Notes under the pieces: generated by a model | Told to the model about the DNA's origin: nothing | Databases searched by the model: none | The model's input: only the letters and a program-made list of their open reading frames with translations | Assembly: GCA_963691705.1 (NCBI GenBank) | Contig: OY829540.1 | Span: forward strand, 72,154,367-72,218,366 | Reading direction: 5' to 3' | From: Viola odorata | Taxonomy: Eukaryota; Streptophyta; Magnoliopsida; Malpighiales; Violaceae | Length of the DNA: 64,000 nt | In this document: positions 33,616-58,504 of the stretch, piece by piece | Layout of the letters: each line of letters starts with the position of its first letter | How positions within the stretch are numbered: the first letter of the stretch is position 1 | Made by a program: the position numbers and the translations under genes

Positions 33616-36362
33616 GTCACGTGGCCAAGAAAACTGCAAATATAGAGTCACAAAACTCAAATCTCTTTTGCTTCAAATTTTCCTCCATCTTAGTTTCATT
33701 GAAATTGTTTAGAAAAAAATAAGAAAAACCCTCATGGGTTCATCTCCTTTTATGTTTCTTGTGCTTCTGTCGATTGGAAATCTTGAATTTAGTACCATTT
33801 CGGCTGATCCAAATCCAACTTGTATCAAGAATGAGCAAGAAACCCTTCTCAAGATCAAACAAGGATTCAATGACACTTCAAACAGGTTTTCATCATGGAA
33901 TATTGCAGAAAATTGCTGCACATGGAAGGGACTTTCCTGCAGCAACAGAACTGGAGGTGGCCATGGCCATGTCATCAAGCTTGACCTCAGCAACCAATCC
34001 AATTCCACTTCCTTGCAAGGTCAGACAATACCCAATTCTCTACTTAATTTGACACATCTCCAATCTCTAGACTTGAGCTACAACAATTTCTCTGGAGTTG
34101 TTATCCCCACATTTCTTGGTTCCATGCACAATTTGACATATCTCAACCTTTCTTGCTCAAATCTTGAAGGAAAAGTCCCCCAAAATCTTGGAAACTTGTC
34201 AAATTTACAGTATCTTGATCTTAGTTGGAACTATGGATTGAGAATTGATAATCTTGATTGGACATCCATACTTTCTTGCTTGAAAGTCTTGGACTTGTCA
34301 GGACTAAACCTTTCCATGGCAAGAAACTGGTTGCATTCGCTAAACATGATCCCTTCTCTACTAGAACTACACTTATCATCCTGTCAAATACCTCACATGC
34401 CTCTTTTACCACATACCAATCTGACATCCCTCGCTTTTCTTGATCTCAGCAATAACAATTTCACTACCACCATCCCCACCTGGTTGGTCAATGCCACTAA
34501 CATTCAGTATCTTAACCTAAGCATGAACAATTTCCGCGGCTCAGTTCCGAGTGAGATGGGGAATTATGAGCTGCTTCAAGTGCTTGACCTGTCTTACAAT
34601 GAGCTAGAAGGTGAAATAACAGATTCAGTGCTGAAGCATGTATGCAACTTTTATGAGCTCAGCTTGGCACACAACAGATTTAGTGGTGAGATTTCAGGGT
34701 CTTTTCGAAACACAACCTCTGGTTGCAGCAGGAGGAGCAACTTAAAGAGTTTGGTTCTTGAAACTAACTTCTTCAGTGGTTTCCTTCCTGAAAATTTGGG
34801 AGATTTTAAGCATCTAGAGTTGCTCAATCTTTACTCGAACGCATTTCGGGGTCCCATTCCGGAATCGATTGGGGAACTTTCAAGTTTGAAAGTGTTGTCT
34901 CTCTCTCACAATCTCTTGAATGGCAGTGTTCCAGAAAGTCTAGGGCAGCTTTCAACCCTAGAAATTTTGGACCTCCATAACAATTCATTGGTTGGTACTC
35001 TTTCTGAAATTCATTTTTCAAAACTCAGGTCCTTAACTACCTTGTATCTATACAGGAACCCATCACTGGTTTTTAATGTCAGCCAAACATGGATACCGCC
35101 TTTTCAGGTTCAAAATCTTGCTTTGTTTTCATGCATTGTAGGACCCAAATTCCCACAATGGATTCAAACACAGACCAATCTTACAATTCTTGAGATGCAG
35201 AACACTAGCATTTCTGGCACCATCCCAGATTGATTTGAGGACATCACTTCTAGTATTATACTGTTGGATTTGTCCTATAATAAGATTGGAAAAAATCTGC
35301 CAAAATTGAGACAGTATTTTCGTTCTACTCCTTATAGGTTCATATACTTGGGATCCAACAAGTTTGACTGTCCTTTAACTCCATTCCCTTCTGATGTGGT
35401 TGAATTAGACATCTCCAATAATTTTCTTTGGGGACATATTCCTGAAACAATTGACACCATGATGCCAAGATTGACCATGTTGCTTCTCTCCAACAACTAT
35501 TTCAATGGAACAGTTCCTGATTCCTTGTGCAAAATAAAAGAATTAAGGTACGTCGATATCTCCGGAAATCATCTTTCAGGACGAATTCCTGACTGTTGGA
35601 GTAGGTCACAACAATTGAATGGCCTGGACATTTCAAACAATTCCATCAGTGGTCATATCCCATCATCTTTGGGTTCTCTGGTAGAACTCCAGTCTTTGCA
35701 CCTGAAACACAATTCTCTGCAAGGAAAGATTCCTGACTCATTAAAGAAGCTAAACCAGTTGCAGATTCTTGATCTTAGTGAGAATGCATTTGAGGGTGTC
35801 ATTCCTTCGTGGATAGGCGAAAACTTTGCTTCTTTGAGAGTCCTCAGTCTTTGTTCCAACAGGTTTGACGGCCAGATTCCTGATCAGCTCTGTCGGCTTT
35901 CGTTGCTCCGAATCTTGAACTTGGCCAACAATAACCTGACAGGAACAATTCCTGACTGCCTAGGTAACTTCACCGCAATGACTGGCGACGGGTGGAGTTT
36001 CGAAGAGTACTGGCTCTACCGCCCTACTGTTTTCGGTAGAGTTTATGGTTATCAGAATTTCGTTTACAATGAGAGGATTTTAGTTTACATAAAAGGGATA
36101 GAGCGTGAGTACACCAGAACACTTTCCTACCTCTTTTCCATTGACATTTCCAGCAACAATATGGATGGAGAGATTCCTGCAGAATTAACAAGCCTGTCAG
36201 GTCTGCAAAACCTGAATCTGTCAAGAAACAATCTGACGGGTTACATTCCGCCAGAGATTGGCAACATGAAATCATTAGAATCTCTTGATTTTTCCAGAAA
36301 TGAACTATCTGGCTCAATTCCTCCAACCATCTCTGCACTGAACTTTCTAAGTCACCTGAACC

Positions 36363-37207
36363 TGATATGATCACGGCCGAAAATCGGAAGAGAAATCCAG
36401 CCGAGATGATATGAAACGAAGGGAGGATCTAGCTCATGAGTTTGTGACTAAAAACAACCATAAAAACAGTAGGAAACACGAATTAACGGAGGGAGACACG
36501 CAGCGGAAAAGATTAAAACAAATACCCGGATTAAGAAGGCGGTTGAAGACGGGAGGGATGATTGAACAAACGAACGATTGAACTTGAGTTCGGATTGTTG
36601 AACGGCTTGAACACGGGCAGATTGTTCAAGAACACAAAAACACTCAAATTCGGATTCATTGTTCACACAAATGGAAGTAACAACGAGTTACACATTTAAA
36701 GGATTCTTGTTTTTTTTACTTGACTCAAGCCATGGCGATCCAAGACCAAGGCAAGCCCCAAGATGGAGCTCCGGATGAATGAATGAGGAAGGAGTGTTCT
36801 CACTTAACATTCATTCATCATCCAAAGCTTCTAACAAAAGAAAGAAAAGAACTATTTATACTAAGTTACAATTGACCTACACTATTACAAAAATGACCCT
36901 GAAAAATAGGCTTGGAAGCCCAAAATTCGGAGACAAAGCAGGGGCAAAACGCTATGGCGTTTTGGTACTGGACAGTTGCGCGCGCTAAAATGTCGACGAG
37001 CATAGCTTTTGATCCACCCGTCCGATTGGTCTGAAACTTGTCCCAAATGAAAGCTAACATCTTGAAGTTTCCATAAAGCCTCTGATTTCTCAAATCGGAC
37101 ACCATTTGCTTGTCCATATGCTGCATGGGCGTGGCTTGCACTCGGGTCTCCTTCCCTTGCTAGGTCAAGGCCGAAAATGTTTAAAAAGGGGGTCCGTGAT
37201 CATATCA
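36363..37207 (-). repeat. lower (3') LTR of the 2.9-kb element
   Basis: 845-bp LTR starting TGATATGATC and ending GATCATATCA, next to the GAACC duplication. Confidence 0.9.
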
Positions 37208-38238
37208 AACTCTTTCCCTTCGAAAGGATTCGTCCTCGAATCCGAAACTTAAAATCCGATCTACTCAAAATTTGCCGAAAAAATAATATGATGAAGAGAC
37301 ATGGTGAATTCTTTCCTGCACAAGTAATAAACATTAGTGTAAAAACACTCCCTCACGTGTTTACACTCGTGTTTAAACTCTCATAAATATTGTACTCACC
37401 AATCTCTCAACTTTCTTTTTTTTTTTTTTTATCATAAATAACCCTTGAGAGGGAAAAATAGTCAAACATCACATGTTTGACAAGTTGGAAGAAGGAGGGA
37501 GAGTGTGGCCGGCTCATGGGGGAGAATGAGCATGGGAGACAAGGTGGGTGGAGACAAGGTGGGTGGAAGACAACCTTTAGACAAAGGTGACAAGTGGGAG
37601 GGAACATTTGACCAAAATAAATAAAAGAATGTGTGAGTGGGATATTTGTTTATGTTAGGCATGGGAGACAAGAAGACAAGTGAGAGAATACTTGTCTCTA
37701 CATATTAATAAACAAAAGGGAAACACCACACACATTCAGCCAAAGGCAAAAGATGGATCAAATGGACTCCTCTCTTGTCTTCCAACCAAGAAGACTCAAG
37801 AACACAAAGATGAACACATGAAGAACACGAAGAACACGAAAATAAAAATTTTGCACACCTTCGGCTAGGATGGCCAAAAATGCACGAAATTTTCACAAGA
37901 CAACAAGAAGACACACAACAAAGATTGACACTTTGGATTTTTGCGAGTTTCGGACAAAAATTCGACACTTTTTTGGAAAGAACACAAACTAACATGAACA
38001 CACTCAAGAACACGAAGAACACGATAATGAACCTTGACTGCCTCCGCCGACGATTCTGTCAAGACCCATTTTCGTGGCCGAAACATGTCATCAAGTGTGA
38101 CACAACAACAATCACAAGAACTGAAACAACTCAAGAACACAAAAACGAACCTAACTACCTCGGTCGGCGATTCTGTAGGGCTCGAGTTGTGGTCGAAACT
38201 AATCTTAAGTGAATCAATTCCAACAAGCAGACTCAAGA

Positions 38239-38335: not shown

Positions 38336-38408
38336 ATCATCTCAACAACAACACACAAACAGAGACAGAGATTTACAAACCCAAGAGCCCAGAAGCTCCG
38401 CTACCACT

Positions 38409-39297
38409 TGATATGATCACGGCCGAAAATCGAAAGAGAAATCCGGCCGAGATGATATGAAACGAAGGGAGGATCTAGCTCATGAGTTTGTGACTAAAAA
38501 CAACCATAAAAACAGTAGGAAACACGGATTAACGGAGGGAGACACGCAGCGGAAAAGATTAAAACAAATACCCGGATTAAGAAGGCGGTTGAAGACGGGA
38601 GGGATGATTGAACAAACGAACGATTGAACTTGAGTTCGGATTGTTGAACGGCTTGAACACGGGCAGATTGTTCAAGAACACAAAAATACTCAAATTCGGA
38701 TTCATTGTTCACACAAATGGAAGTAACAACGAGTTACACATTTAAAGGATTCTTGTTCTTTTTACTTGACTCAAGCCATGGCGATCCAAGACCAAGGCAA
38801 GCCCCAAGATGGAGCTCCGGATGAATGAATGAGGAAGGAGTGTTCTCACTTAACATTCATTCATCATCCAAAGCTTCTAACAAAAGAAAGAAAAGAACTA
38901 TTTATACTAAGTTACAATTGACCTACACTATTACAAAAATGACCCTGAAAAATAGGCTTGGAAGCCCAAAATTTGGAGACAAAGCAGGGGAAAAACGCTA
39001 TGGCGTTTTGGGCAAAACGCTATGGCGTTTTGGGCAAAACGCTATGGCGTTTTGGTACTGGACAGTTGCGCGCGCTAAAATGTCGACGAGCATAGCTTTT
39101 GATCCACTCGTCCGATTGGCCTGAAACTTGTCCCAAATGAAAGCTAACATCTTGAAGTTTGCATCAAGCCTCTGATTTCTCAAATCGGACACCATTTGCT
39201 TGTCCATATGCTGCATGGGCGTGGCTTGCACTCGGGTCTCCTGCCCTTGCTAGGTCAAGGCCGAAAATGTTTAAAAAGGGGGTCCGTGATCATATCA
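38409..39297 (-). repeat. upper (5') LTR of the 2.9-kb element
   Basis: 889-bp LTR, carrying three copies of a 22-bp unit at about 38990-39055 where the other LTR has one. Confidence 0.9.
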
Positions 39298-39917
39298 GAA
39301 CCTGTCTTTCAACAACTTCTTCGGCCGCATTCCATCTGGCAATCAAATCCAAACACTGGATGACAGATCTGCTTATATGAGCAATGCAGGGCTTTGTGGA
39401 CCGCCATTAGACAAATGCCAAGAGGATGAAGAGCAGATTAAGGAAAGAAATTCTGATGATGATGATGGTGATGAGTTTGAGATTCTTGGATTCTACAGTG
39501 GGTTAGGTATGGGTTTTGCAGTTGGATTTGTGGGAGTGTGTGTCACATTGTATTTCCAGGATTCGTGGAGGAATGCATACTTTGATTTAATTGAGAAATT
39601 TGCACCATGTTTTGGATAAAACCAATTATTTCTGGCGAAGTTTCATGCTTTCTAGATTTTCTCCGGAGATGAGAGTCGAGTCCCAATTTGTTGGCTGTAG
39701 GCTGGAGATATATATGTTCTTGGCAGTTCTAATTGCCTCAACCATTCTTTTCTTTATCATTGTATCTGTTTATAGTTTCATTCTTTTTTTAGAAGTAAAA
39801 ACTGTAATAACAATAGGAGCACGAAGCTTTGTACATTACAAATCAAAATATTATCGAAATCTGATCGAGTTCGAATTGCTTGTCTACATTCTTATCCATG
39901 TTAAAAGAAAAGAAATA

Positions 39918-43769: not shown

Positions 43770-44392
43770 GGTTTAGTTTTACTTCTTGATCATCTGCCGA
43801 TTGGCATATTTTTGTAATGAACAGATACTATTCGGAATATAATTTTGCAATTTTTAGTTATTGCAAGTACTTAAACATTTCTGTTATGCATATATATACT
43901 ACTCCAGAAAAATTTAACAAAGATAAAACAATTGTAACTTTGAACTTATCTGTGTTTTTGGCGGTTCGACCATTTGCTGTTTTGAAGATGCCGCTTTCAA
44001 CCAATCGGGATGGAGCCGATTTGGTTGTTGCTGACTCTTTAATTTTTTGTAACGTGGTTCAGTTTGAAATAACCTACGTCCACACTTCTTGAATTTTGAT
44101 AACGCGGTTCGGTTTGAAATAACCTACGTCCACGGCTGATTTTATTTTATGGAATCGGCTGCTTGCCGTTTTGGAGATACTGTCGTTGTTCATTTCACTA
44201 TCTGGTTTACTAAGACACAGATAGGTTTGAGTCTTTCTTCACTTTATCACCGTCTGATCAGCAGGACCGAAATGGTCTTATGAAGATGTGATGACGATAT
44301 ATGTCTCAATAGCGATATATGCCTCAATAACGCTATACGCTAACGATATATGCCTCAATAACGCTATATGCCTCAATAACGATATACGTCTC
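43770..44392. other. outer element: non-coding part left of the nested insert
   Basis: It contains a repeated phrase around GAAATAACCTACGTCCAC at about 44048-44082 and 44099-44134, with a third copy at about 56966-57001 beyond the insert. A tandem array of CGATATATGCCTCAATAA-like units lies at about 44290-44387. A stretch at 43883-43953 resembles 57103-57165. Confidence 0.7.
44388..44392 (+). repeat. left target-site duplication of the inner element
   Basis: GTCTC, repeated at 56806-56810. Confidence 0.92.
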
Positions 44393-45917
44393 TGATTGGT
44401 TGTTTATATTCGATGATTTATGCTCTCTTTATCTTATGTTTTGAGAGCATTTGATTGCTTCTTTTGGCCATTTACTTCCCTTTTCCTTTGTTCAGGCTTG
44501 AAAGATCAGTTGGAAGGAAAAGGAGTTGATTTGGTGAAAGATAGAGCATTTTCCAATCATGGCCGTTTTGGAGGATGATTGCAGAAATTTTACCTTATTC
44601 ATCCCTAGGCCTAGGGATGAGTCGGGCGATCTGGTGAAATTCTGGGCAGTCCGCCCATGTTTATGCGTGCCGAGGATTAATTTACTTCTTAGTGCTTTTC
44701 TTGTCCCCTGAGCATGCTAGACAGTTTTTAAACTCCACTACCTCGTGTTTCCTTAATACCTTGACTCAAGAACCCCTTGGAGACTCCATGAGGAATTTAT
44801 TCCATCACTTCTTAGTGTTCCACAAGAATATATTCTTGTCTCTTCCTCATTTTTGGAGCTGCATGCTTGCATTAATTTAATCTTGGAGTGCTGCTGCTCT
44901 TGGGGAGAACAATGAGAAGGATGGATGAGCTATAGAAGGGGAAGACTTTCGTCCAAGGAGGGGGCTGAACATCATCATTCGGACAGAGAGAGAGGAGGCA
45001 AGGACAGCAAGCGGGCTGCACTTCACCTTCACCACCAATTTCCAGATTTGTTTTACTTTTGAACAATAGTTTAATTTGTAATTTTTATTATGTATTGTAG
45101 CTAATTACCTCTGATTCTTGGTAGAGATTAGAGGTTGACTATCCATGTTGTTGTGAGACTTTTATTGGAATTAATATGAATGTTTTTATATCTCTTTTCT
45201 TCTCACTTTAATTGTTAAAACTTGTTCTTGTTGAATTAAAAGCTTGATCAACTTGTGATTTGATTTGAATGAGTAATGTCAGTTTCATTTATGTTAGTGT
45301 GATTCCTACATTATGAAGATTGAGTAGACAACTAGTGAATATTTGACATAAGATTTGTCTTTAGGAGCTAGGAGAAGGGAAGAATGGGTTCAGGGCTGAG
45401 TAATGCCATCCCTACGCCTAGGAATGGGTTTTCCGTGTGGTTACAATTTTCCAGCAACTTGACAAATTGTTAGGAAGGTTAGGGCCATTAATAGAGGGTC
45501 TCTTTAATTGGCTTGTATAGGGGGAAACTTGGGAATATAGAGGGTCTCTTATTCCTTTAACATCTCTATAAATCCATTTCAGAATATGTTTTGTCAATGA
45601 TCAATTACTAAGGATAGTCACCTTGCTTAAATCTCTACTAAGGATTGTCTCTCTATATCTGATTTCACTCACATTTCCAGTTCTAATTCGTGCATGCTAC
45701 TGTTACCTACTGATTTACATTCAAAGTGTTGTTTTTAATTTGGTTTTAATTACAAAAACTCCCCCCAACTTTGTTCCGATTTAGTTTTTACAAGAAAAAT
45801 ACAAATTACTCAAAGATTTCCTCCCTGTGTTCGAACCTTTCACTACTATCTACATTTTATTTTGTGGCTTAGCACTGAATTGTATTTTTAATTTATGATC
45901 GAGAACGACATCAGTCA
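44393..45917 (+). repeat. 5' LTR of the Athila-like element
   Basis: 1525 bp. A TATA-like TATAAA lies at 45567-45572. It carries one perfect palindrome (44599-44620) and one degenerate palindrome (45406-45427). A 62-codon open frame here is repeated in the other LTR and is not taken as a gene. Confidence 0.95.
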
Positions 45918-45922
45918 TAATT

Positions 45923-45940
45923 TGGCGCCGTTGCCGGGGA
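45923..45940 (+). other. primer-binding site, tRNA-Asp type
   Basis: TGGCGCCGTTGCCGGGGA matches the reverse complement of the plant tRNA-Asp 3' end over 18 bases, starting five bases after the LTR. Confidence 0.9.
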
Positions 45941-45973
45941 GGTAACGAGTTCTAATTTTCGTTTTTCTTGTTG

Positions 45974-46981
45974 ATGACCAGGTCCAGTAACTCACAACCA
46001 GTACCTTACGTCCCTGAGATCACAAGAGTTGAAACCGCAATCAGATTATCCAAGAGAAAGTTCAACGAATTTTCATCTTCTGGTTCAAATTCAGAAGCTG
46101 AGGAGAACCTATCCCTAGGCCTAGGGATAGACTCAGGATCAGAACCTGAAGCAGAACCAACACCACCAGAGATGGATAATCCACCACCTGAACCTACCCT
46201 TCGGGAGCTCAATCAAGGAGCTGAACAAGAGTCCTTCTTGTGTATTAACTACCGCCCAGTACCAAATGATTGGGCCGTGAAGTCAAATGTCATGCATAAC
46301 CTCAGCAAGTTCAGAGGACATGCATCCGAAAATCCTTACAAACACCTCCAAAAATTTCAGTTTGAGTGTGATGCTCTAAAACCAACTGGAGTGAGTCTTG
46401 AAAGAGCTAAGTTGAGAGCTTTTCCATGGTCTTTAGAGGATTCAGCCAAGAATTGGTTCTTTAGCTTGCCTCACAATTCCATTAATTCTTGGGCTGATAT
46501 GGCTGCTACATTTCTAAAAAAATATTGGTCAGCCACCAAAGCAGGAGCAGCTAGGAAAAGTCTTGTCTCAATTCAGCAACATGGTGACGAGTCTTTTGGG
46601 GAATATCACCAACGATTTAAAGACCTTCAAGAGGTCTGTCCTACCCATGGCGTGCCTGAGCAATCTCTCATTCAATACTTCTACGATGGCATGCGAATTA
46701 AGGACAAGGAGAAGCTTGACTCGGCAGCTGGAGGAGCCTTGCTTGACTTAACACCAAGTAGAGCAAGGGCTCTCATTCAAATCTTGGCCGATAATTGCCA
46801 CCAAAATGGGACTCAAGAACGTTCCACTTCAGCCAACAATATTAGTGTAGCTGCCCTTGAGAAACACATGGAGGAAGTCTCCACATTTATGAAGAATTTT
46901 CCAGCTGAAATTCCCATATTCAGCAAATTCCACCACAGCAAGTTGTTCCTTGTGGAGTTTGCTGTCAAATTGGGCATGTGA
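45974..46981 (+). CDS. Athila-like gag, capsid part (frame ends early)
   Basis: Starts [20 protein letters not shown] at the ATG 45974 and ends at a TGA at 46979-46981. The acidic N-terminal part contains one copy of the palindrome (read LSLGLG, near residue 46). The retrotransposon gag domain follows ([52 protein letters not shown]). After about 46909 the meaningful frame is the next one over, in which a CCHC zinc knuckle at 46951-46992 leads into pol. So gag and pol were one frame and are now separated by a net one-base loss (or two-base gain) inside 46909-46981. I saw no canonical slippery heptamer there, so this is probably a mutation. Confidence 0.85.
46109..46130 (+). repeat. palindrome copy in gag
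   Basis: Perfect 22-bp palindrome around ATCCCTAGGCCTAGGGAT, encoding Ser-Leu-Gly-Leu-Gly. Confidence 0.95.
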
Positions 46982-49900
46982 CTCATGAGTGCCCTCTCAT
47001 AGCCGATCCTCCTGAGCAAGTCAATGCTACCATGCCACAACAAGGAAATATGCACCCCAACACTAGTAATCAAGGCTGGAAAAATTACACTCACTATGGG
47101 TGGGGGCCAAACCAGCAGCAACCTCCATTTGAGTGGAAAAACTTTAAGCCAAGACAACAACAAAGCTACCAAAATCAGCAACCAAACCAGCCACCCACTC
47201 AACCACAAGTACCTCAGTTACCACCACCTCAACAACCTCTGCAACTACCAGCACCACCACAAGTACCAATCGAAGAAACTCTCAAGAAAATCCTTCAACC
47301 ATTACAAGCCACGGTGCAAGCAACCCAATCTATGTTGCAAGCAAACCAATCCACCATTGCTGACCTCCAAAAGCAAATGGCACAGCTTGCAATGAACCAG
47401 CAAAATACCTCTGGGCAGCTGCCATCAAACACAGTCGAAAACCCAAGGCACGGACTGAATGCAATCCATTTGCGAAGTGGGAGAGATTTACCTCCCAGGG
47501 AACTGCCGCATCCATCCCTAGGCCTAGGGATGGATAAACCAGAAATCCAACCAGAAGTTTTGCCCGAAAATCAGCCAGAAATGCAACAACCAGCGCCTGA
47601 ACCAGCTGAGCGACCCTCTGCACCTGCAGAGCCTCAGGTAATTCCTTTTCCCTTTCCAGAAAGGCCCTTGAAAGCCAAGAAGGAAAAAGAGGACAAATTA
47701 ATTCTTGATGTTTTTCGAAAAGTTGCAATTAATGTTCCTTTGTTGGATTTAATTTCTCAAGTGCCTAAATATGCTAAATTCTTGAAAGAATTATGTACTA
47801 ATAAGAAAAAGCTTGAGGGGATTGAAAGAGTGAACTTAAGTGAAAATGTTTCGGCAATGCTTCAACAAAGACTTCCCGAAAAATGCAAAGACCAAGGTAC
47901 GTTTTCAATACCTTGTAAAATAGGGAATAAAGAGATAGAAGATGCATTGTGTGACTTGGGTGCAGGTATTAATGTTATGTCTCTGTCCATATTTGAAACT
48001 TTGAATATAGGATCTCTTAAGGAAACTAGAGTAGTAATCCAACTTGCCGATAGATCCACTATCTATCCAGTAGGTTTGCTTGAAAATGTTCTAGTGAAAG
48101 TAAATGATTTTGTGTTTCCCGTGGATTTCTATATTGTTGATATGAAAAACAAGGATGTGCTTAAAACTACTGATGTTATCTTAGGAAGACCCTTTCTAAG
48201 AACAGCTAGAGCAAAAATTGATGTCTATGATGGATGTTTGACTTTTGAATTTTGCGGTGAAACAATTAAATTCAACATGTATGATGCCATGAAACATCCA
48301 AATGAAGTTCATTCTGTGAATTTTATAGACATAATTGATCCTTTTGTTGATGAAGTTTCTGATATTAACTCCCTTGAACCTCTTGAGTATGTTCTAAGCA
48401 AAGGATTAACCAAGAAGAAATTGGAGAAATTGGAAGGCCAAATCGAAGTCAAATCTGAAATTAGTGACTTGGTCATGGAGCTGGACACGCCTCATGTCCC
48501 AGAAGGTACTCTGAACACAATTGAAATATCAGATAAAATCACTAAAATCAGACCTTCAATTTTTCAGGCTCCCGATTTAGAACTCAAGAAACTGCCAGAC
48601 CACCTGAAGTACTCATTCCTAGGCCTAGGGATGAGTCTGCCAGTAATTACTTCCAGCAGTTTGTCAAGGTTGGAGGAGGACAGACTTGTGCAACTTTTGA
48701 AGGAATACAAGGAAGCTATAGGTTGGACCATAGCAGACATAAAAGGGATATCTCCAGCAATATGTACCCACAGAATACACCTTGAGGAGGATGCCAAAAC
48801 AGTGAGGCAACCACAGAGGAGGCTCAATCCTCCAATGATGGAGGTTGTGAAGAAAGAAATCCTAAAACTCCTTGCTGCTGGTATGATCTATCCGATTTCA
48901 GATTCTTCTTGGGTAAGCCCAGTGCAAGTGGTCCCAAAGAAGTCGGGAACCACAGTGGTGACAAATGAGGAGGGACAGTTAGTTCAGAAAAGAGAACAAG
49001 ATACATGGAGAGTGTGTATCGACTATAGAAAACTGAATAATGCGACTAGAAAGGACCATTTCCCTCTTCCTTTTATTGATCAAATGCTAGAACGATTAGC
49101 AAGCAAATCTCACTACTGTTTTCTTGATGGATTTTCAGGTTTCCATCAAATTCCGGTGGCAAAGGAGGATCAAGAAAAGACAACTTTTACATGCCCTTTT
49201 GGCACGTTTGCATACCAAAGAATGCCATTCGGATTGTGTAATGCACCAGCCACATTTCAAAGGTGTATGATGAGTATTTTTTCAGATTATGTAGAGAAAG
49301 GTATAGAGGTATTTATGGACGATTTTACTGTCTATGGAAACTCTTTTGATGAATGCTTGAAAAATCTGAAAAAAATCCTTCAAAGATGCGTTGAAACAAA
49401 CTTGGTTTTGAACTATGAGAAATGCCATTTTATGGTGAATAAAGGAATAGTTTTGGGCCATGTTGTTTCTAACGAAGGCATTGAGGTTGACAAGGCTAAA
49501 ATAGATATTATTGAATCGCAATCTTACCCATCTTGTGTGCGAGATGTGCGTTCATTCTTAGGCCTTGCAGGTTTTTATCGAAGGTTTATTAGAGATTTCT
49601 CAAAGATTGCGGAGCCTATGTGTAGGTTGTTGCAAAAGGATGTTGAATTTGACTTCGATGAAGCTTGTAAGAAAGCGTTCAACCTCTTGAAGGAGAAGCT
49701 TGTGACTGCACCGGTGATTAGAGCACCCGACTGGACCAGACCATTTGAGATAATGTGTGATGCTAGTGATACAGCCGTTGGGGCTGTTCTTGGACAAAAA
49801 ATTGGCAAAGAACCACACGTTATTTACTACGCATCAAGGATGCTTGATTGTGCCCAGAAAAATTACACTACCACGGAGAAAGAATTATTTGCAATTGTGT

Positions 49901-51480
49901 TTGCCTTAGACAAATTTCGTTCATATCTCCTTGGTACTAAAGTGATAATTTTTTCTGACCATGCAGCTTTGAAGTACTTAATGGCAAAGAAGGAGGCAAA
50001 GCCTAGGCTCATTCGTTGGATACTCCTTCTCCAGGAGTTTAACCTTGAGATCAGAGACAAGAAGGGCAAGGAAAACCTCGTGGCTGATCATTTAAGCCGA
50101 CTCCTAACTGACCAAGAAATCAGACCTGTCAAGGAAAATTTTCCAGACGAGCACCTATTCCTAGGCCTAGGGATAGAGCCCTGGTATTCTGAAATTGCAA
50201 ATTACCTTGCTACGGGTAGATTCAGAGGCGACTGCACTTCAGCCGAAAAAGAGAAGATCAGGAGGGACTCCAGACACTACCTTTGGGATGATCCTTACCT
50301 ATGGAACATAGGAAGAGATCAAGTCATCCGTAAATGTGTCCTTGAATTCGAAATTCCATCTATTCTCCAACATTGTCACTCTTATGCTTGTGGAGGACAC
50401 TTTGGCCCGAGGAGGACGTCATGGAAGGTCTTGGAGGCTGGTTTCTTCTGGCCTACATTGTTCAAGGACTCATATATCTTCTGCAGAACTTGCCCAAATT
50501 GCCAAAAGACCGGAACTATTTCAGCAAAGAATCAAATGCCACTCAATCCTATTCTTGTTTGTGAGGTATTTGATGTTTGGGGTATAGACTTCATGGGTCC
50601 CTTCCCAAACTCAAATGGCCACATTTACATCATTTTGGCAGTGGATTATTTGTCAAAGTGGGTAGAGGCAAAGGCAACAAGGGCGGATGATGCAAAAATA
50701 GTGGTTTCCTTCTTGAAGACGCACATTCTCAACCGTTTTGGAGTCCCCCGAGCCATCATAAGTGACAGGGGCAGCCACTTCTGTAATCGTGTGGTTGCAA
50801 ACCTCTTTGCAAAATACAAGATCACCCATCGTGTATCTACTGCCTACCATCCACAAACCAATGGAATGGCTGAATTATCCAATAGAGAGATCAAGTCTAT
50901 CTTGGAGAAAACAGTAGGTCCAACAAGGAAGGATTGGAGTCAGAGACTTGAGGATGCTTTGTGGGCATATAGAACAGCCTACAAAACTCCAATTGGAACC
51001 ACTCCTTATCGGTTGGTTTTTGGGAAGTCTTGTCATTTACCCGTTGAGATGCAACATCGTGCATATTGGGCTATCAAGCAATGCAACATGAGCATGAATG
51101 AAGCTGGTTTGCAAAGGAAACTTCAGATTCAGGAGCTAGAAGAGTTGAGGAATTCGGCTTATGAGAATTCAGCCATTATCAAAGCTAAGGCGAAGGTGTA
51201 CCATGATGGTCGCATCCATCCCAAGGCCTTGAGAGTTGGCCAAAAAGTTCTCCTCTTCACCTCCAGGTTTCGCATTATGGCTGGGAAATTAAAATCCCGT
51301 TGGACTGGTCCTTATATTGTTGCTAAAGTGTACCCTCATGGTGCAATCGATATTGAGGATCCGAAGACAAATTCCATTTTCAAGGTTAATGGCCAACGTT
51401 TGAAGCCATTTTATGAGGGATTTCGATCTCACATCGTGGAGAGCACCACGAATCAGCCATCTGATGTTAATGCAGCTTAA
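46909..51480 (+). CDS. Athila-like pol polyprotein (zinc knuckle, PR, RT, RNase H, INT)
   Basis: Open from 46909 to the TAA at 51480. In order: a CCHC zinc knuckle at 46951-46992; a Gln/Pro-rich linker; an aspartic protease with a DLGAG motif (Asp codon at 47953), where Asp-Leu-Gly in place of the usual Asp-Ser/Thr-Gly is common in this lineage; reverse transcriptase with [11 protein letters not shown], a palm motif FMDD (49312-49323), and [16 protein letters not shown]; RNase H ([15 protein letters not shown] near 49753, [13 protein letters not shown]); integrase with an HHCC finger (about 50372-50515); and a DD35E triad with Asp codons at 50587 and 50764 and Glu at 50872. All these catalytic residues are present, so pol itself looks intact although it is cut off from gag. 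Three palindrome copies fall in the linkers before protease, before reverse transcriptase and before integrase. Confidence 0.93.
47511..47534 (+). repeat. palindrome copy between gag linker and protease
   Basis: Perfect 24-bp palindrome, read as PSLGLGM. Confidence 0.95.
48611..48636 (+). repeat. palindrome copy between protease and reverse transcriptase
   Basis: 26 bp with one mismatched pair, read as FLGLGM. Confidence 0.95.
50155..50176 (+). repeat. palindrome copy between RNase H and integrase
   Basis: 22 bp with one mismatched pair, read as FLGLGI. Confidence 0.95.
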
Positions 51481-53938
51481 GCAAGCAGTGTCTAGTCTTT
51501 TCCAAGACTATAAACTGGAACGAAATGTGGGAGTCAGCCCACACCATTTCAACTTGTGTGATTATGATCAGCAACCTGACCTATCCCTAGGCCTAGGGAT
51601 GGGTTCAGTTTCGAATTTCAGACACAAAAATACAACAAGCTTGCCACCTCACTCAAAATTGCCAACTCATTTAAATCAGCCACATCACCAATGCCACCTG
51701 TCTAAATCAGCCACCTCACTATTTCCCTCTTCAATTTCAGTTTCCCCTTTCGTTCAAAACACCTCCATAAACCAAAAAACTGAAATTATCATTCCCACTC
51801 TATCTCAAACATCTGTTCTCCCAAAATCAAAATCCCAAAACCAAAACCTTTCGTTTTCCCTCAACCAAAACAGCAAATATCCAACCATGCCCAGAAAAAA
51901 ATCAGAAGCTAAAAGGGGCGGCTACAATCTCTTCTCAGCAAACCAGCTGCCAGGTTTGTCAGCCCAAACGCCGCCGCTTCCTCCGCCGCAGCCAGCGGCT
52001 TCTCAGTCCAAAAACCCGGCTGCTGCAGCGCCGTCCACCTCCATTATTCGAGGGCAATCAAGCCGGGCCCAAGGCTCAGCTGACCTGAATCTCAATCTCC
52101 CACCTCTGACTGCACCAGGCAGTCCCGTTTCAGCCGCTCCCTCCGCTGGAACAGACATGCAAATCCAGCCAATTTCCGCGCCCTCTGAGCAGCCTTCATC
52201 GGAGTCCACTGCTGCTTCTAACGCAGTACCCACGGCCAGCGAAGACTCTCCTACCTCCAAGCCAAGAGACATCGCTGTCTCTTCAGACTCAGACCAAAGA
52301 CCATTGAGGTCCATGATGCGCAAGGCAGCGCCGGCCACTATTCCTGCCCGTTCTGATAGAGAAGAACGGCAGCTGAGGAGGAAAGGAATCATGGTACCTC
52401 CCATCCAAGCTGCTGCCGAAATTTTGAAGCAAAAGAAGGCCCAAAAATTAGCACAGCCTGCACCTTCCACAAGAAAAAGAAAAATGGCAGCGATTGAATC
52501 CGAGGAAGAAGCAGACCCAACTCCTCCACCAAAGAAAACGAAAAGCCTATCCCAAGGCCTAGGCAAGAAGAAAACGCAAGCAACCCCTTCTCCAAAGCAG
52601 AGGATCCCTCAAGCGCAAAAAGGAAAAAAGAAGGTGACAGCCGAAACTCCTTCGCCACCGCTTCAGATCCCGCCTGCGGAGCAGCAATCAAATGTTCGCG
52701 TCCACAACAGAGCCAAATCCAGCCGCTCCAATGCTCAGGTCATGATCCCTAACATTAAATCCCTTAATGGTTGGCTGAAATTTGATGAATTTGAGCTGAT
52801 TGAAAAGCTTGCTGTTAAACAACAACTCTCTGCTCCCTCTTGTGCTAAATTGGATTTTGAGTTGCTTGATGCTTTAGGGCTTAGTGATAGGATCAGAATG
52901 TTGATTAAAAACATTGGTTGGGATTCTTTCTTTTTTCTTGAGCATCCGGCATATGCAGAACTGTGTTTAGAATTTTACACCACTTTTTGGTATGCATCTG
53001 CTAAGGAGAAATTGGGTGTTAGTTTGGATAGAGAGCGTGACATAAATTTTCGTTTGTGCGATAAATATGTCCACTGTACTCTTAATGAATTTAACGTGCA
53101 TTTGGGTTTTGTGGCTGAAGAACATATTCATGCTCCTTGGTATTTAACTGCTTTTAATGACTACCCTGCTACCTTAGATAAGCATGAGGCCTTTAGAGAG
53201 CTGACTGGAATTTCCACAGCTCATTTTGATGATAATGCTAAAGCTCATGCGATTCAAGACCCTTCTCTTAGGATCTTGCATAGGTACATAGCAGTAACTT
53301 TTGCAGGAAAATCTAGAATTTCTGGACAGCTTTCCAAACAAGAGCTTTTCTTTTTGTGGTGCATGAACCATGAGCATATTGTTAATTTAGGCTTTTGGAT
53401 AGCTACTCAGATGCATGTTTATAACAAAAAGATGTTGATGGGATCTGTTATTACACAACTTGCAATCAATTCCAAACGATTGGACCTTAAATCGGCCAAG
53501 CTTTTTAATTGTGCTTCTTTGAAGCCTTTGGATTTGATGGCTCTTGACGCGATGGGATTTTTCCATCTCGATCAAGACGGTTTTGTGTGTTATAATGTAG
53601 GTTTCACGCCCGTTCAAGATCACATTTTCAGCAACAAGAACGGGGGAATCTACAAGCTTCGTCCCTTGAATCTTCAACCCAATGCCCCTGCATCAGCCCC
53701 TACTGTTTCTGCTGCTGCTGCTGATCACCGAGATGCGGGTCCCTCGCAACCCACCATTGCCGAAGCTACTGCTCAAGAGACGGACCACATTCCAGCTCAG
53801 CTCTCGGTTCTTCTAAGGAACCAAAGCAATCTCCTCCGGATCCTGCTGCGCGAGCAACGCGAGAGCAACCATCTTCAGCAGCGGATGCTCGACGCCCTGG
53901 AGCGTGTACTTCCAGCTCCGGCCTCTCCCAATCCTTGA
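51413..53938 (+). CDS. third ORF of the Athila-like element (Athila ORF-1 type)
   Basis: Open frame of 841 codons overlapping the end of pol by 68 bases in another frame. An alternative start is the ATG at 51887 ([20 protein letters not shown]), after which the sequence becomes protein-like. Residues 159 to about 440 are Pro/Ala/Ser-rich with basic clusters ([20 protein letters not shown]), suggesting nuclear or nucleic-acid contacts (inference). From about 52740 a globular region follows ([60 protein letters not shown]) that resembles the Arabidopsis Athila ORF-1 family (PF03078-like, from memory). The position after pol is where other Athila elements carry an env-like gene; I see no convincing signal peptide or membrane anchor here. 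Two palindrome copies lie in its N-terminal half. Confidence 0.82.
51581..51602 (+). repeat. palindrome copy at the head of the third ORF
   Basis: Core ATCCCTAGGCCTAGGGAT at 51583-51600, read as LSLGLGM. Confidence 0.95.
52549..52566 (+). repeat. degenerate palindrome copy in the third ORF
   Basis: ATCCCAAGGCCTAGGCAA, read as LSQGLG in the same frame as the other copies. Confidence 0.7.
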
Positions 53939-54452
53939 GTCGTTTGCCCCGGGTTTTATCTTCCTTTTCCTATCTCTTTTGTTTTTATTTCTGTTTTTAC
54001 TTGTTTGTGTTTGTTTTTGTTGTTTGTGGTTGATTCTTTCTCACATTGAGGACAATGTGTCCTTTAAGTGTGGGGGTGGATCACTTTCGTGTTTTATTTT
54101 GTGTGTTCTTGAGTGCATGTTTGTGTGATTTTTAATTATTTTTATGCATGATCAGTTTGTTTGTTTTTAGTTTCTTTAGTTTTTCCTATTTCTTCTGCAT
54201 GTTTATTTCAGTAGCTTGTGCGTGTGTTTGCTTGTTTCTCGGGTCTGTTTTTGTGTAGTTTTTCTTGTGTGTCTTGCCCCCCCTTCGTTTGAAAATCAAT
54301 TTCTAGGCTGAACTCATGCAAACACTTCTCCAATCAACTCTTCCCAGCAGTTCTGAACATTTCCTATGTTGCATATGTGCATTTATTTAAATAGAAGTAT
54401 GATAAGTGTAGCTGTCCTAAGAAATGCTTTGCTAGGACTGATTTGCCGTCCC

Positions 54453-54472
54453 TATCCCTAGGCCTAGGGATA
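54453..54472 (+). repeat. palindrome copy in the 3' non-coding region
   Basis: Perfect 20-bp palindrome outside any ORF. Confidence 0.95.
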
Positions 54473-55266
54473 AGGATCCCTGCCTCATCACTGCTGTCAG
54501 TTTTTATATTTTTGCTTGCATGTGTACCCCTTTAAATTCTTGTGTGTGGCTTCTCTTTTCATACCCTTTGGACTGCACGATGTTGGTGGTTCGGCACCAT
54601 CATCCCAGCTTGGAGAAACTTCCAATCGGTCGTGTGCTAACCCCTTATTTAGGGCCGATCATAGCACCATGGGGAGAGCCAAAAGTCTGCATGTGCATGT
54701 GTTTGAGTTCGAAAAAAAAAAAAATAGGAATATGGAATGAAGGAAGGTTGAAAAGAAAAGAAAGAAAGAATGCGGAAGAAGAAGGAAAGTTGGAGAAAAA
54801 AATGCAACAAAGAAAGAAAAAAATGCAACAAAGAAAAAGAAAAAAATGCAACAAAGAAAAAGAAAAAAAAATAGAATAAAAGAAGTGGAGAAAATAAAAG
54901 AAGCCTTTGGCTCATTATATGTTTTAATTTTGTTCTTCACTACTGTTTGTGCTCTTTTAATTCTTGCATGTGTCAGCAGCAGTGTATGGATTTTGAGCCA
55001 AAGGAGGAGACGTTTTGAGGTTCTAGGATTTTATTTCTTGGTTGACAGCTTGCTATTATACTCCTATATAAATATTTGTTCATTTGTGATGTTGGGGGTG
55101 TTTAGCATTGCTTGGAGGAATTGATTCTTGAAGTATTTGCTTGAGTTCAGTCCAGAGTTGGATTTTCTAATCAAGGGGGTGTATTTTGTGTGTTTGTGTG
55201 TCTGATTGTCTGTTTTCTTTGTGTTTCTTTATGTCTTGAGTTCATGCTTGGGGGCAAGCATGGTTC

Positions 55267-55280
55267 AAGTGTGGGGGGTT
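55267..55280 (+). other. polypurine tract of the Athila-like element
   Basis: AAGTGTGGGGGGTT immediately precedes the 3' LTR, the position where plus-strand DNA synthesis is primed (known). Confidence 0.8.
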
Positions 55281-56805
55281 TGATTGGTTGTTTATATTCG
55301 ATGATTTATGCTCTCTTTATCTTATGTTTTGAGAGCATTTGATTGCTTCTTTTGGCCATTTACTTCCCTTTTCCTTTGTTCAGGCTTGAAAGATCAGTTG
55401 GAAGGAAAAGGAGTTGATTTGGTGAAAGATAGAGCATTTTCCAATCATGGCCGTTTTGGAGGATGATTGCAGAAATTTTCCCTTATTCATCCCTAGGCCT
55501 AGGGATGAGTCGGGCGATCTGATGAAATTCTGGGCAGTCCGCCCATGTTTATGCGTGCCGAGGATTAATTTACTTCTTAGTGCTTTTCTTGTCCCCTGAG
55601 CATGCTAGACAGTTTTTAAACTCCACTACCTCGTGTTTCCTTAATACCTTGACTCAAGAACCCCTTGGAGACTCCATGAGGAATTTATTCCATCACTTCT
55701 TAGTGTTCCACAAGAATATATTCTTGTCTCTTCCTCATTTTTGGAGCTGCATGCTTGCATTAATTTAATCTTGGAGTGCTGCTGCTCTTGGGGAGAATAA
55801 TGAGAAGGATGGATGAGCTATAGAAGGGGAAGACTTTCGTCCAAGGAGGGGGCTGAACATCATCATTCGGACAGAGAGAGAGGAGGCAAGGACAGCAAGC
55901 GGGCTGCACTTCACCTTCACCACCAATTTCCAGATTTGTTTTACTTTTGAACAATAGTTTAATTTGTAATTTTTATTATGTATTGTAGCTAATTACCTCT
56001 GATTCTTGGTAGAGATTAGAGGTTGACTATCCATGTTGTTGTGAGACTTTTATTGGAATTAATATGAATGTTTTTATATCTCTTTTCTTCTCACTTTAAT
56101 TGTTAAAACTTGTTCTTGTTGAATTAAAAGCTTGATCAACTTGTGATTTGATTTGAATGAGTAATGTCAGTTTCATTTATGTTAGTGTGATTCCTACATT
56201 ATGAAGATTGAGTAGACAACTAGTGAAAATTTGACATAAGATTTGTCTTTAGGAGCTAGGAGAAGGAAAGAATGGGTTCAGGGCTGAGTAATGCCATCCC
56301 TACGCCTAGGAATGGGTTTTCCGTGTGGTTACAATTTTCCAGCAACTTGACAAATTGTTAGGAAGGTTAGGGCCATTAATAGAGGGTCTCTTTAATTGGC
56401 TTGTATAGGGGGAAACTTGGGAATATAGAGGGTCTCTTATTCCTTTAACATCTCTATAAATCCATTTCAGAATATGTTTTGTCAATGATCAATTACTAAG
56501 GATAGTCACCTTGCTTAAATCTCTACTAAGGATTGTCTCTCTATATCTGATTTCACTCACATTTCCAGTTCTAATTCGTGCATGCTACTGTTACCTACTG
56601 ATTTACATTCAAAGTGTTGTTTTTAATTTGGTTTTAATTACAAAAACTCCCCCCAACTTTGTTCCGATTTAGTTTTTACAAGAAAAATACAAATTACTCA
56701 AAGATTTCCTCCCTGTGTTCGAACCTTTCACTACTATCTACATTTTATTTTGTGGCTTAGCACTGAATTGTATTTTTAATTTATGATCGAGAACGACATC
56801 AGTCA
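55281..56805 (+). repeat. 3' LTR of the Athila-like element
   Basis: 1525 bp, the same length as the 5' LTR. Palindromes lie at 55487-55508 (perfect) and 56294-56315 (degenerate). Confidence 0.95.
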
Positions 56806-56810
56806 GTCTC

Positions 56811-57333
56811 AGTGACTATATATGTATTGTTGGCAATATATGTATCGTTGGCAATATATGCTGCCGATTTGAACTAATCGGGCTGTTGCTGATTTGGTTA
56901 TCGGCATCCCCAGGCAGCGCCTTGGGTAGCCCTGGTAGCTTTAATATCGCCGGTTCTTGGATTTTGGTAACATGGTTCGGTTTAAAATAACCTACATCCA
57001 CGATTTATTTGATTTTTGTTTTCTCAGGATCTGCAATCACCGGAGAAACAATGCTGGCAAATATATGTTTTTCATTATTTTGGAAATATTCGATAATTCA
57101 TGTTATACATAATATTCCAGAAAAATTAACAAAGATAAAAACAATCAATAATTGAACTTATCTCTGATTCGGCTAGATGCCGTTTTGAGGGAACCGTTTG
57201 AGGTTTATACTCCTTCGGCGCTGGGCCGTTTTGAAAATATTACCATTTCGCTCCCTGATTTGGACAACGGTATGGCAGAGAAATTGGTTGACCATTCTGC
57301 ATATCGGCTTCCTGCCGTTTGCTTCTTCTCTGT
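56811..57333. other. outer element: non-coding part right of the nested insert
   Basis: It contains AATATATGTAT/CGTTGGC units continuing the array seen left of the insert, a third copy of the ...AATAACCTACATCCAC phrase, and TCGGC...TGCCGTTTT motifs at 57169-57186 and 57304-57320. Confidence 0.65.
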
Positions 57334-58404
57334 CTATTTATGCGGGGAAGATCCTTTCTTTTGGAAATCGGCCTCCTCCCGTTTCTTCCGTTGATAATCT
57401 GCTTCTTCCATTCTGGAATACTTTTCTACCTCAACCCGCAAGAGATCCAAGGTTTTAGGAGTGCTTGCAATCAAAGCATTTTCCAATTCTCGATATTTAC
57501 AGTTCCTTTTCAACGCCTCTGCTGCTAAATTAGGCGCTACATCAGGAAGAGTTGCTAGCTCCGTGTTGAATCTAGCCACATACGCAGCTAACGACTCCCC
57601 TGACTATCGCATTATGTCAAACAGAACGACTGGAGATTTTTCCATCGGAATACATGAGCTGAATCGGCTTCTGAATGCTTTTTCCAGCTGCTCAAAATAG
57701 TCAATAGATCCGGCTGGTAGCTTCTCAAACCAAGTGTTGGCTATCCCCTTAAGGGTCATCACAAATATTCGGCATAAAGCCTCATCATTTCTAGTAAAAA
57801 ACTTGACATGTTTCTTTACTAAACTCACATGAACAGTCGGATCTGTGATCCCATGATAATGATCAGATGGCAGCTTAACATGCCTGCTTACTTGATGTTT
57901 CCGAATCCGAAAGGTCAACGGATTCCTCGGATCATCATCCTGATCTTCCGGATCTGGATGAGGAACAGATTTTCTGGACAGGCTTCGTCCACCTTTTGCG
58001 CGATCTGTCTCTGGGTGATGCTGGGTCACCGATCTCTCTAGTCTCCTCTTTCTGGTCTGATGAACTGTCCCAGCTTGTGGAACCGTCGGTTGATGGTGGA
58101 TCTGTTGAGGAATAAGTTGTTGGTTGGGCGGAGGAATTCTCTCCATGATCGTCGCCATTATCACGTCCATCCTTTGGTGTAGGGCAGCAAACTCAAGCCT
58201 GACCGCTGGAGGGAGTATTGATTCGGACAGATCTGGTTGAGGAGTTGCAGAAAATAGGATTTCTGAAATTTCTGGAGAGTTGAGCCTATGTTCTGCAGCT
58301 TGCACTTCCACACAAGAAGATGAAGCTTGCGCTGGTGAAGGGTCATGGTGGCCAGCAGCTTCACCGGTGGGTTGTTTTGATTGAAAGATTGGGTCGGATG
58401 CCAT
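57334..58404 (-). pseudogene. gag of the outer Tat-like element, with an in-frame stop
   Basis: Read leftward from the ATG at 58404 (MASDPIFQSKQPTGEAAGHH). The N-terminal part is low complexity and basic. A gag capsid domain follows (HVSLVKKHVKFFTRNDEALC, TLKGIANTWFEKLPAGSIDY, FEQLEKAFRSRFSSCI). An in-frame TAG stands at 57604-57606 where Gln (CAG) is expected. The same frame then continues (SGESLAAYVARFNTELATLP) to the stop at 57334. The tail is charged and helical. I see no zinc knuckle before the stop. It sits about 100 bp from the upper LTR, which fixes the element's minus orientation. Confidence 0.85.
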
Positions 58405-58504
58405 TTTTCTGGAAATGAAAACCCCAAGAAAATAGAAGAAGAAGAAGCTTTGAATTTCAAGGTGACTCACTTAAAATTCAAAAGCTCTCAATGAAAGCAC
58501 CAAA

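Follow-up and report, generated by a model that had tools for sequence, protein, structure and literature searches.

The window, a stretch of 64,000 nucleotides of Viola odorata DNA, contains a young LTR retrotransposon (44393-56805) whose 5' and 3' LTRs are 99.67% identical, and all 11 copies of a palindrome with an 18-bp core lie within this one element. Paired TG...CA LTRs and a target duplication are present as in Ty3/gypsy elements, and by the position of the Pfam matches the domain order is gag, protease, RT and integrase, with integrase after RT. The element is presumably Athila-like, a label that rests on the name given in the original prediction and on a weak match of ORF3 to the ATHILA domain PF03078 (20.1 bits, cut-off 20.2). 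At E≤0.01 ORF3 matches only this domain and PF20167 (Transposase_32, putative plant transposon protein), both sub-threshold, and not DUF1985. Protein searches returned six distant matches for Gag and none for ORF3, that is no close relatives in other species. The features are given below, with no strand for the palindromes; "places" are genomic places at which the respective site was compared.

44393..45917, + strand: 5' LTR with TG...CA ends, preceded by the 5-bp target duplication GTCTC
44601..44618: LTR_a, exact core, in U3; exact in 38/40 places
45408..45425: LTR_b, two mismatches, in U3, with a TATA-like sequence about 160 bp downstream; exact in 7/41 places
45968..46981, + strand: gag ORF (PF03732, E 9.6e-22)
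46111..46128: gag46111, exact core; exact in 14/18 places, paired change CAAGGCCTTG in 2/18
46978..51480, + strand: pol ORF (protease, RT, integrase), pieces of which match PF13650, PF00078, PF17921 and PF00665
47514..47531: gag47514, exact core; its 4-base flanks occur in relatives in three different self-complementary forms
48615..48632: rt48615, one mismatch (ATTCC), between protease and RT
50157..50174: int50157, one mismatch (ATTCC), between RNase H and integrase
51218..51235: degenerate tenth site, four mismatches, in the C-terminal part of integrase
51583..51600: post51583, exact core, past the pol stop; exact in 8/8 places
51887..53938, + strand: ORF3, ATHILA-like (PF20167, E 4.7e-8; PF03078, E 3.1e-4; both under the Pfam cut-off)
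52549..52566: orf52549, degenerate, three mismatches, inside ORF3
54454..54471: nc54454, exact core, non-coding; exact in 9/18 places
55281..56805, + strand: 3' LTR, directly followed by GTCTC
55489..55506: LTR_a copy of the 3' LTR (window scan)
56296..56313: LTR_b copy of the 3' LTR (window scan)

Palindromes along the element

Scanning the window with the 18-bp core and up to three mismatches yielded 11 matches (six exact, two with one, two with two and one with three mismatches), all of them inside the element; the mean after shuffling was 0.02. The original prediction of about eleven palindromes in an Athila-like element, absent elsewhere in the window and situated in LTRs, coding and non-coding parts alike, is thereby borne out; its coordinates were right within 0-4 bases and often included flank bases. 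Since 44601/55489 and 45408/56296 are LTR duplicates, nine sites are independent. Four strong sites fall in gag or pol, and the two located in U3 precede the TATA-like sequence, which was noted by visual inspection near 45566 in the 5' LTR. No site occurs in the 5' leader of this element. The core is free of CG and the sites lie about 1 kb apart along the whole element, their spacing being more regular than random for the nine sites (CV 0.30, p 0.0006) and also when the degenerate site at 52549 is left out (eight sites, CV 0.47, p 0.028). Conservation of the four-mismatch site at 51218 is no higher than that of its surroundings and this site may be a chance occurrence. A second dispersed dyad at 36-39 kb of the window was rejected as a candidate: an ordinary short element is present there in two copies, and their inverted ends produce the pattern.

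Conservation in relatives and restriction to the family

Genome-wide, the core occurs with at most two mismatches at 1865 places and the reversed control pattern at two. The search had been proposed together with the warning that the core might be equally common outside the family; among the 50 of the 1865 places that were inspected (exact places in C1, 0-51 Mb), all belong to copies of the family or to remnants of its LTRs. Neither the core within four mismatches nor a palindrome of at least 12 bases is present in 8.8 kb of a copy from a neighbouring Athila-like family, where one 12-mer occurs three times. Scans with the exact 18-mer gave no match in viral contigs and a single one in genome contigs, in a Nitrospira MAG, which is taken as chance.

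Relatives carry the sites at the same element positions with symmetry above chance, as the original prediction had required of sister elements. Core mismatch amounts to 14/900 (1.6%) without LTR_b and 28/1026 (2.7%) with it, the background 13-50 bases from the core being 11.4%, and this conservation is partly ascertained, many loci having been fetched for holding an exact core. The LTR_a, LTR_a2, LTR_c and post51583 cores are exact in 60 of 62 places. Furthermore, the ATTCC variant of the core is kept at 8/9 rt48615 and 7/7 int50157 places, and such persistence of site-specific variants indicates that the cores are not simply homogenised and that selection is needed. We infer that the core is held by selection. 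On the other hand, the site closest to the promoter, LTR_b, is degenerate in the youngest subfamily.

The flanks behave differently. The first 12 bases change nearly twice as fast as nearby sequence (0.213 within 12 bases versus a permuted value of 0.138, sd 0.015), and yet the flanks are self-complementary above chance, which gives statistical support to the flank symmetry noticed originally, and they contain the compensatory double changes for which a check had been suggested. Some flanks are common to different sites, a modest effect of 2-2.6 sd.

Several palindrome-bearing relatives lack ORF3 (alignment gap 51652-53876 in L008, L009, L010 and L013; a similar gap in L016). In fact, a short relative free of coding sequence has perfect cores at 6/6 places representing four distinct positions, one of them in the presumed R/U5 part. 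Its repeats share 99.6% identity with one another, but the alignable parts of its LTRs are only 70-80% like the window. The retention of perfect cores in this relative implies that the sites function in cis rather than through an encoded peptide.

Origin and possible function of the palindrome

The translations of the four strong coding copies share one frame, as would be expected if a peptide motif (S/F)LGLG(M/I) were selected in Gag-Pol and the non-coding copies were by-products. However, one of the three frames holds a stop, so that four copies in one frame have a probability of about 0.12, and the non-coding LTR_a and post51583 cores are conserved at least as well. We rejected this hardly credible explanation because LGLG is found in 0/117 homolog rows at the rt48615 position and the coding-free relative retains the sites. 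The palindrome is also short and dispersed over coding and non-coding DNA, in which it resembles Rickettsia palindromic elements, which are larger insertions in coding and non-coding sequence of bacteria, and a miniature element dropped into many places by insertion was one of the roles offered in the original prediction. It finds no support where it can be tested: at the position homologous to rt48615 nearly all of the 117 rows show no length change and no empty sites one unit shorter were seen, 8/15 aligned rows are without gap at int50157 (the other seven need gaps), the rest of the window is without copies and the 50 listed places elsewhere belong to the family. As judged from these alignments, the palindrome clearly did not arrive by insertion at 48615, a conserved pol position, and probably did not at 50157, unlike the Rickettsia elements, and we regard insertional spread as very improbable. 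Movement of another kind has left traces. A deletion from 48615 to 51583 with its junction inside the core occurs at five distinct genomic places (six loci, two of which are the same place). In addition, a 20-nt left flank of the nc54454 type is present at LTR_b in L020, and the switch back falls on the 8-nt near-match AGGRCTGA; the foreign left flank is recorded at three LTR_b loci, which represent one genomic place with a transferred patch, such that short-patch movement by template switching has been seen once. Together, the core-junction deletion and the transferred patch mark the palindromes as template-switch points. Both would also be expected of a self-spreading palindrome of no benefit to the element, for which reverse transcriptase would pause at the hairpin and jump between copies, thereby copying core and flanks elsewhere and one arm onto the other; the halo of faster change and the flanks common to different sites agree with such a process. 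We nevertheless consider it unlikely, since site-specific core variants are not overwritten, the four cores named above are almost invariably exact and conversion could hardly homogenise 18 bases without also levelling the flanks.

Two readings with a function for the element remain to be weighed. We tentatively prefer, at a probability of roughly 0.37, to see in the palindrome a cis-acting dyad site that is specific to the family and repeated at steps of about 1 kb, the likeliest ligand of which would be a homodimeric sequence-specific DNA-binding protein. The alternative, to which we assign a comparable though still limited likelihood, holds that dispersed RNA hairpins, each with a stem of 7 bp, which the flanks can lengthen to 11 or more, and a self-complementary GGCC loop, are bound by Gag or pair genomic RNAs and so mark family RNA for packaging. 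Pair probabilities of 0.83-1.0 are predicted at 7/9 sites, also in 618-nt context, the stem is lengthened by flanks with compensatory double changes, and the coding-free and deleted relatives, necessarily packaged in trans, keep the sites. In all 47 flank rows, G-U types in the sense strand make up 19% (null 23%) and A-C types 12% (null 23%), with counts of 11 versus 7 within three bases and 14 versus 11 within five. G-U types are thus the less depleted, a mild lean towards RNA. This lean depends on the rows, however: in the 41 rows left when six recent, junction or degenerate ones, which carry G-U types, are dropped, the two types are equally rare (7 versus 7, and 10 versus 11 within five bases), so that the count does not tell the RNA and DNA readings apart. 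Moreover, no such fold is predicted for the LTR_b and orf52549 sites of the window, and known packaging and dimerisation signals of LTR elements usually reside in the 5' leader, which has no site in the window element. The reading as a DNA site for a dimeric protein draws on the family-wide occurrence at 1865 places, core conservation, the persistence of site-specific core variants, the coding-free relative, even spacing and the U3 sites upstream of the TATA-like sequence. It has to contend with flank pairs that covary, which a plain dimer site does not require, with the mild lean towards RNA in the 47 rows, with the failure to find a DNA-binding protein, ORF3 having only its two sub-threshold Pfam matches, with relatives that keep the sites without ORF3, with the degeneration of LTR_b next to the promoter and with the selection of loci for an exact core. 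Of the roles proposed originally, a dimeric-protein site is slightly favoured and an RNA dimerisation or packaging role may be nearly as likely; spread by insertion is unsupported at the positions open to testing.

We infer both that the ligand is a protein reading DNA and what the site does. A putative homodimer encoded by the family or the host would have to act along the entire element. It could, for example, keep the chromatin expressible, the part that VANC proteins play in VANDAL transposons. The repeated core, able to form a hairpin, would serve reverse transcriptase as a point for switching, and this switching would edit the flanks, occasionally exchange them in short patches and produce deletions between sites.

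Comparison with known systems and implications

A literature search found no system with a distributed dyad word along a retrotransposon, and CCCTAGGCCTAGGG was not found in a literal text search. By analogy, the closest published kind appears to be the palindromic repeat boxes of Sireviruses. These RM boxes are short palindromes present in 8-32 copies in LTRs and internal region and proposed to be cis-regulatory; they cluster in LTRs and before env, nearly all are non-coding with mostly a CGG-CCG core, a few lie at the env start in two elements and the hosts are Ty1/copia (PMC2829016). The Viola element shares with them a short palindrome in many copies in a plant LTR retrotransposon, conserved within the element, and its 11 copies exceed the lower limit of eight per element. 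It differs in its Ty3/gypsy order (integrase after RT) instead of Ty1/copia, in evenly spaced sites that include gag and pol, in the lack of a CG core and in covarying flanks.

The YAGTATTAY motif of VANDAL21 is non-palindromic, mainly non-coding, uniformly oriented and often tandemly repeated, and belongs to a DNA transposon with a known binder, VANC21, that acts in anti-silencing (PMC5735166, PMC10398659). A short motif concentrated in one transposon family many times per element is a feature common to both and would let a transposon protein reach the whole element, and deleted copies of the VANDAL21 type, which may respond in trans, would be a further likeness. The Viola sites, in contrast, are dispersed, palindromic and also coding, their protein ligand is putative and ORF3 is without a DUF1985 match (E≤0.01). 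Ty1 RNA has a few dimerisation palindromes or kissing loops in the 5' region only (PMC5454406); self-complementary hairpins in LTR-retrotransposon RNA, predicted in Viola, are thus a shared trait, but the Viola palindromes are repeated along the element. RNA viruses possess multiple packaging hairpins with a common recognition motif dispersed over the genome (PMC6281560). These signals vary around a motif, whereas the 18 bases in Viola are nearly identical and fully dyad-symmetric.

A broader reading, which we put forward as possible but rather doubtful, sees a distributed dyad code at steps of about 1 kb, the arms of which would be kept self-complementary site by site through snap-back and patch switching of reverse transcriptase, and which would either offer a dedicated protein a chromatin handle along the whole length or live as a parasite on the retrotransposon. 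If the palindrome is bound by a protein, this would be a second independent transposon family that marks its whole length with a motif of its own, in this case among retrotransposons, the class with which plant genomes are filled, and a single 18-mer would allow direct tests of anti-silencing or RNA selection in retrotransposons. If it is not, the family would provide a rare natural record of reverse transcriptase copying, editing and spreading a palindrome, readable at more than a thousand genomic sites.

Distribution of the palindrome in the element and the genome

The original prediction that a palindrome is scattered some eleven times through an Athila-like element was borne out. Its 18-bp core, ATCCCTAGGCCTAGGGAT, has 11 matches with up to three mismatches (0.02 expected), all of them inside the element and none elsewhere in the 64-kb window (C4:72154367-72218366). 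As had also been claimed, the sites occupy LTRs, coding and non-coding parts, each LTR having two and gag/pol having four strong ones, while single sites lie behind pol, in ORF3 (weak) and in the 3' spacer; an additional weak site lies at 51218. Counting LTR pairs once, the nine sites are evenly spaced (CV 0.30 versus 0.86 for random positions, p 0.0006; CV 0.47, p 0.028 without the weak ORF3 site). The element itself is delimited as follows:

44393-56805, LTR retrotransposon: LTR pair, TG..CA ends, GTCTC duplication on either side

Its LTRs measure 1525 bp and are 99.67% identical, and gag (PF03732) is followed by protease, RT and integrase in Ty3/gypsy order, while the matches of the third ORF to ATHILA and Transposase_32 are both sub-threshold. 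The gag and pol ORFs overlap by four bases in different frames (46978-46981), which means a programmed shift or, alternatively, a defect in the window copy. Similar short repeats (84%) flank the element at 44086-44148 and 56954-57016, and its insertion target was a repeated stretch. A neighbouring Gag-like ORF (57604-58470, minus strand; PF03732, E 5.3e-6) belongs to another retroelement. An ordinary inverted-repeat element, short and with inverted ends that read CCGTGATCATATCA, is present twice (36360-37210, 38406-39301; copies 93.6% identical).

A search of the whole genome (699 Mb, 26 contigs) with up to two mismatches returned 1865 places for the core versus 2 for a reversed control. Individual inspection covered 50 of the 1865, namely the listed ones among at least 50 exact matches; these come from C1, below 51.1 Mb. 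With the surrounding DNA fetched for each, all 50 proved to be family copies or LTR remnants, 49 assigned via locus alignment and one (L059) via flanks alone. An Ulmus protein led to another Athila-like family (74 scored matches among 24907 candidates, 63-66% identity). This family looks free of the core, judging from one 8.8-kb stretch with neither a core within four mismatches nor any palindrome of at least 12, and from the five copies scored on C1 below 51 Mb, none of which is near a listed exact core.

Conservation of the core

Sister copies (78-91% identity) keep the palindromes at homologous positions. When 8 sites were compared over 13 copies (57 comparisons, core within four mismatches required), 14 of 900 core bases differ from the window if LTR_b is excluded and 28 of 1026 if it is included, versus 11.4% at 13-50 bases away. 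When core rates were set against local medians in an alignment without the core-match requirement, they were 0-0.7% at 44601, 47514, 48615, 50157 and 51583 (local medians 5.6-16.7%), 2.8% at 54454 (19.8%), 6.3% at 46111 (10.3%) and 5.6% at the weak site 51218 (6.5%); LTR_b at 45408 fares worse than its surroundings (18.3 versus 11.9%). The contrast is weaker in coding parts, where 12-23% of local windows are equally conserved at 46111, 47514 and 50157. Both sets of figures are flattered by the fact that most compared loci were fetched for having an exact core.

Exact cores by site type at 176 distinct genome places (up to four mismatches, the window's own included; 9 places not classed)
LTR_a, 44601/55489: 38 of 40
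LTR_a2, unalignable U3 type: 11 of 11
LTR_c, in relatives: 3 of 3
K2602, in a short relative: 1 of 1
post-pol, 51583: 8 of 8
gag, 47514: 8 of 9
gag, 46111: 14 of 18
3' non-coding, 54454: 9 of 18
LTR_b, 45408/56296: 7 of 41
ORF3, 52549: 0 of 2
between protease and RT, 48615: site-specific ATTCC form in 8 of 9, the remaining place being the deletion junction
between RNase H and integrase, 50157: site-specific ATTCC form in 7 of 7

Since such site-specific variants last, we would argue that mutual overwriting of cores is not the simple rule. Near 51.054 Mb, C1 holds a short, young relative (L023 with L061) with 99.6% identical repeats of at least 1954 bp, truncated where the fetched DNA ends, and with no tblastn match (1e-3) to gag or the first 400 pol residues. 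It carries exact cores at all six places, corresponding to four distinct positions, two of which (LTR_c and K2602) are absent from the window element. That a coding-free relative keeps exact cores indicates that the sites act in cis. Five further loci (L008, L009, L010, L013, L016) have palindromes and are missing the ORF3 region (window 51652-53876).

Flanks, halo and template switching

The flanks extend the symmetry, as originally noticed. In a set of 47 distinct flank combinations that excludes site 52549, the first five pairs contain 3.26 Watson-Crick pairs, whereas 2000 exchanges of right flanks among sites give 2.05 (sd 0.15, maximum 2.64); within-site shuffling lowers pairing too (observed 153 versus 135.6, sd 5.0, p 0.0006), the p values for flanks being too strong as the copies are related. 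Paired changes occur at gag 47514 (ATCC/GGAT, ACTC/GAGT, GTCC/GGAC), at 51583 (ACCT/AGGT, GTCT/AGAC, GTCC/GGAC) and inside the core at 2 of 18 places of gag 46111 (CAAGGCCTTG). With every pair type scored a single time at each site and the full 47 rows used, Watson-Crick types make up 36 of 57 within three bases (63%, null 47%, sd 3), the others being sense G-U (11; 19%, null 23%), A-C (7; 12%, null 23%) and other (3); within five bases the 96 types comprise 54, 14, 11 and 17, respectively. The excess of true flank pairs is firm.

The 12 bases adjoining the core change faster than the rest (0.213 versus a permuted mean of 0.138, sd 0.015; none of 2000 permutations as high). This halo appears on both sides at LTR_a and 54454, on either side in the first six bases and, further out, on the left at 51583, in the first six bases at 47514, on the left at 46111, and on the left plus further out on the right at LTR_b; none was seen at 48615 and 50157 in the same comparison. 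At positions 1-6 the 5' side is more changed (91/334 versus 50/340, summed over copies that are not independent). In one copy, L020, the left flank of LTR_b is a 20-nt replacement matching the 54454 flank of another, L015, with two differences, returning at the near-match AGGRCTGA with a net gain of four bases. A deleted subfamily, sampled at six loci representing five distinct places (L038 and L056 coincide), has the 48615 left flank fused to the 51583 right flank with the core as the exact junction, and seven LTR pairs spaced 5.64-5.69 kb fit short elements of this core-to-core type. L056 and these pairs outline an amplified 5.65-kb subfamily with a deletion between two palindromes plus ORF3 loss. 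Flank sharing between sites slightly exceeds the null (left 6.69 versus 6.30, sd 0.19; right 6.31 versus 5.92, sd 0.15), the top right-hand pair being the 48615-51583 deletion itself. From halo, patch and junction as products, we infer reverse-transcriptase template switching at the core.

Possible nature of the palindrome

Row lengths exclude that the palindrome arrived by insertion at 48615 and make this unlikely at 50157; gag 47514 lies in a variable linker. At 48615, nearly all of 117 plant protein rows (drawn from the top 120 among 7981 scored proteins) are as long as the window's own reading there; they read FLGENETLPV and similar, and none has LGLG at this position, which speaks against a peptide motif. 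At 50157, eight of 15 aligned rows are ungapped (P0110, P0045, P0022, P0070, P0059, P0097, P0041, P0035) and seven gapped, among them L060, a copy of the sister family. A palindrome spreading by itself without benefit is improbable, and remaining explanations have little weight.

An RNA hairpin is a candidate only slightly less likely than a DNA-protein site. Local folding in 138-nt and 618-nt contexts gives the seven core pairs probabilities of 0.83-1.0 at seven of nine sites, and no core hairpin at 45408 and 52549. The full 47-row set leans mildly towards G-U being tolerated in flank stems, as an RNA stem would allow; in a 41-row set with recent, junction and degenerate rows dropped, G-U and A-C are about equal (7 versus 7 of 54; 10 versus 11 of 91). 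Kissing loops are described near the 5' end of Ty1 (PMC5454406), and dispersed packaging hairpins have been proposed for RNA viruses (PMC6281560).

For DNA-binding proteins, VANC21 is described as binding a non-palindromic nonamer, mainly in non-coding DNA of VANDAL21, with VANC causing methylation loss across the whole element (PMC10398659, PMC5735166). Titles and abstract openings on Athila palindromes, the literal core and dispersed palindromic motifs of LTR elements offered nothing alike besides the RM boxes of Sireviruses, the nearest published kind, which are palindromic, number 8-32 copies in LTR and linker, are nearly all non-coding and have a proposed regulatory role (PMC2829016). The dyad site in the Viola odorata family is real, family-wide, conserved and evenly spaced, and it may serve as a putative DNA-protein site, a reading to which we assign a probability of roughly 0.37.
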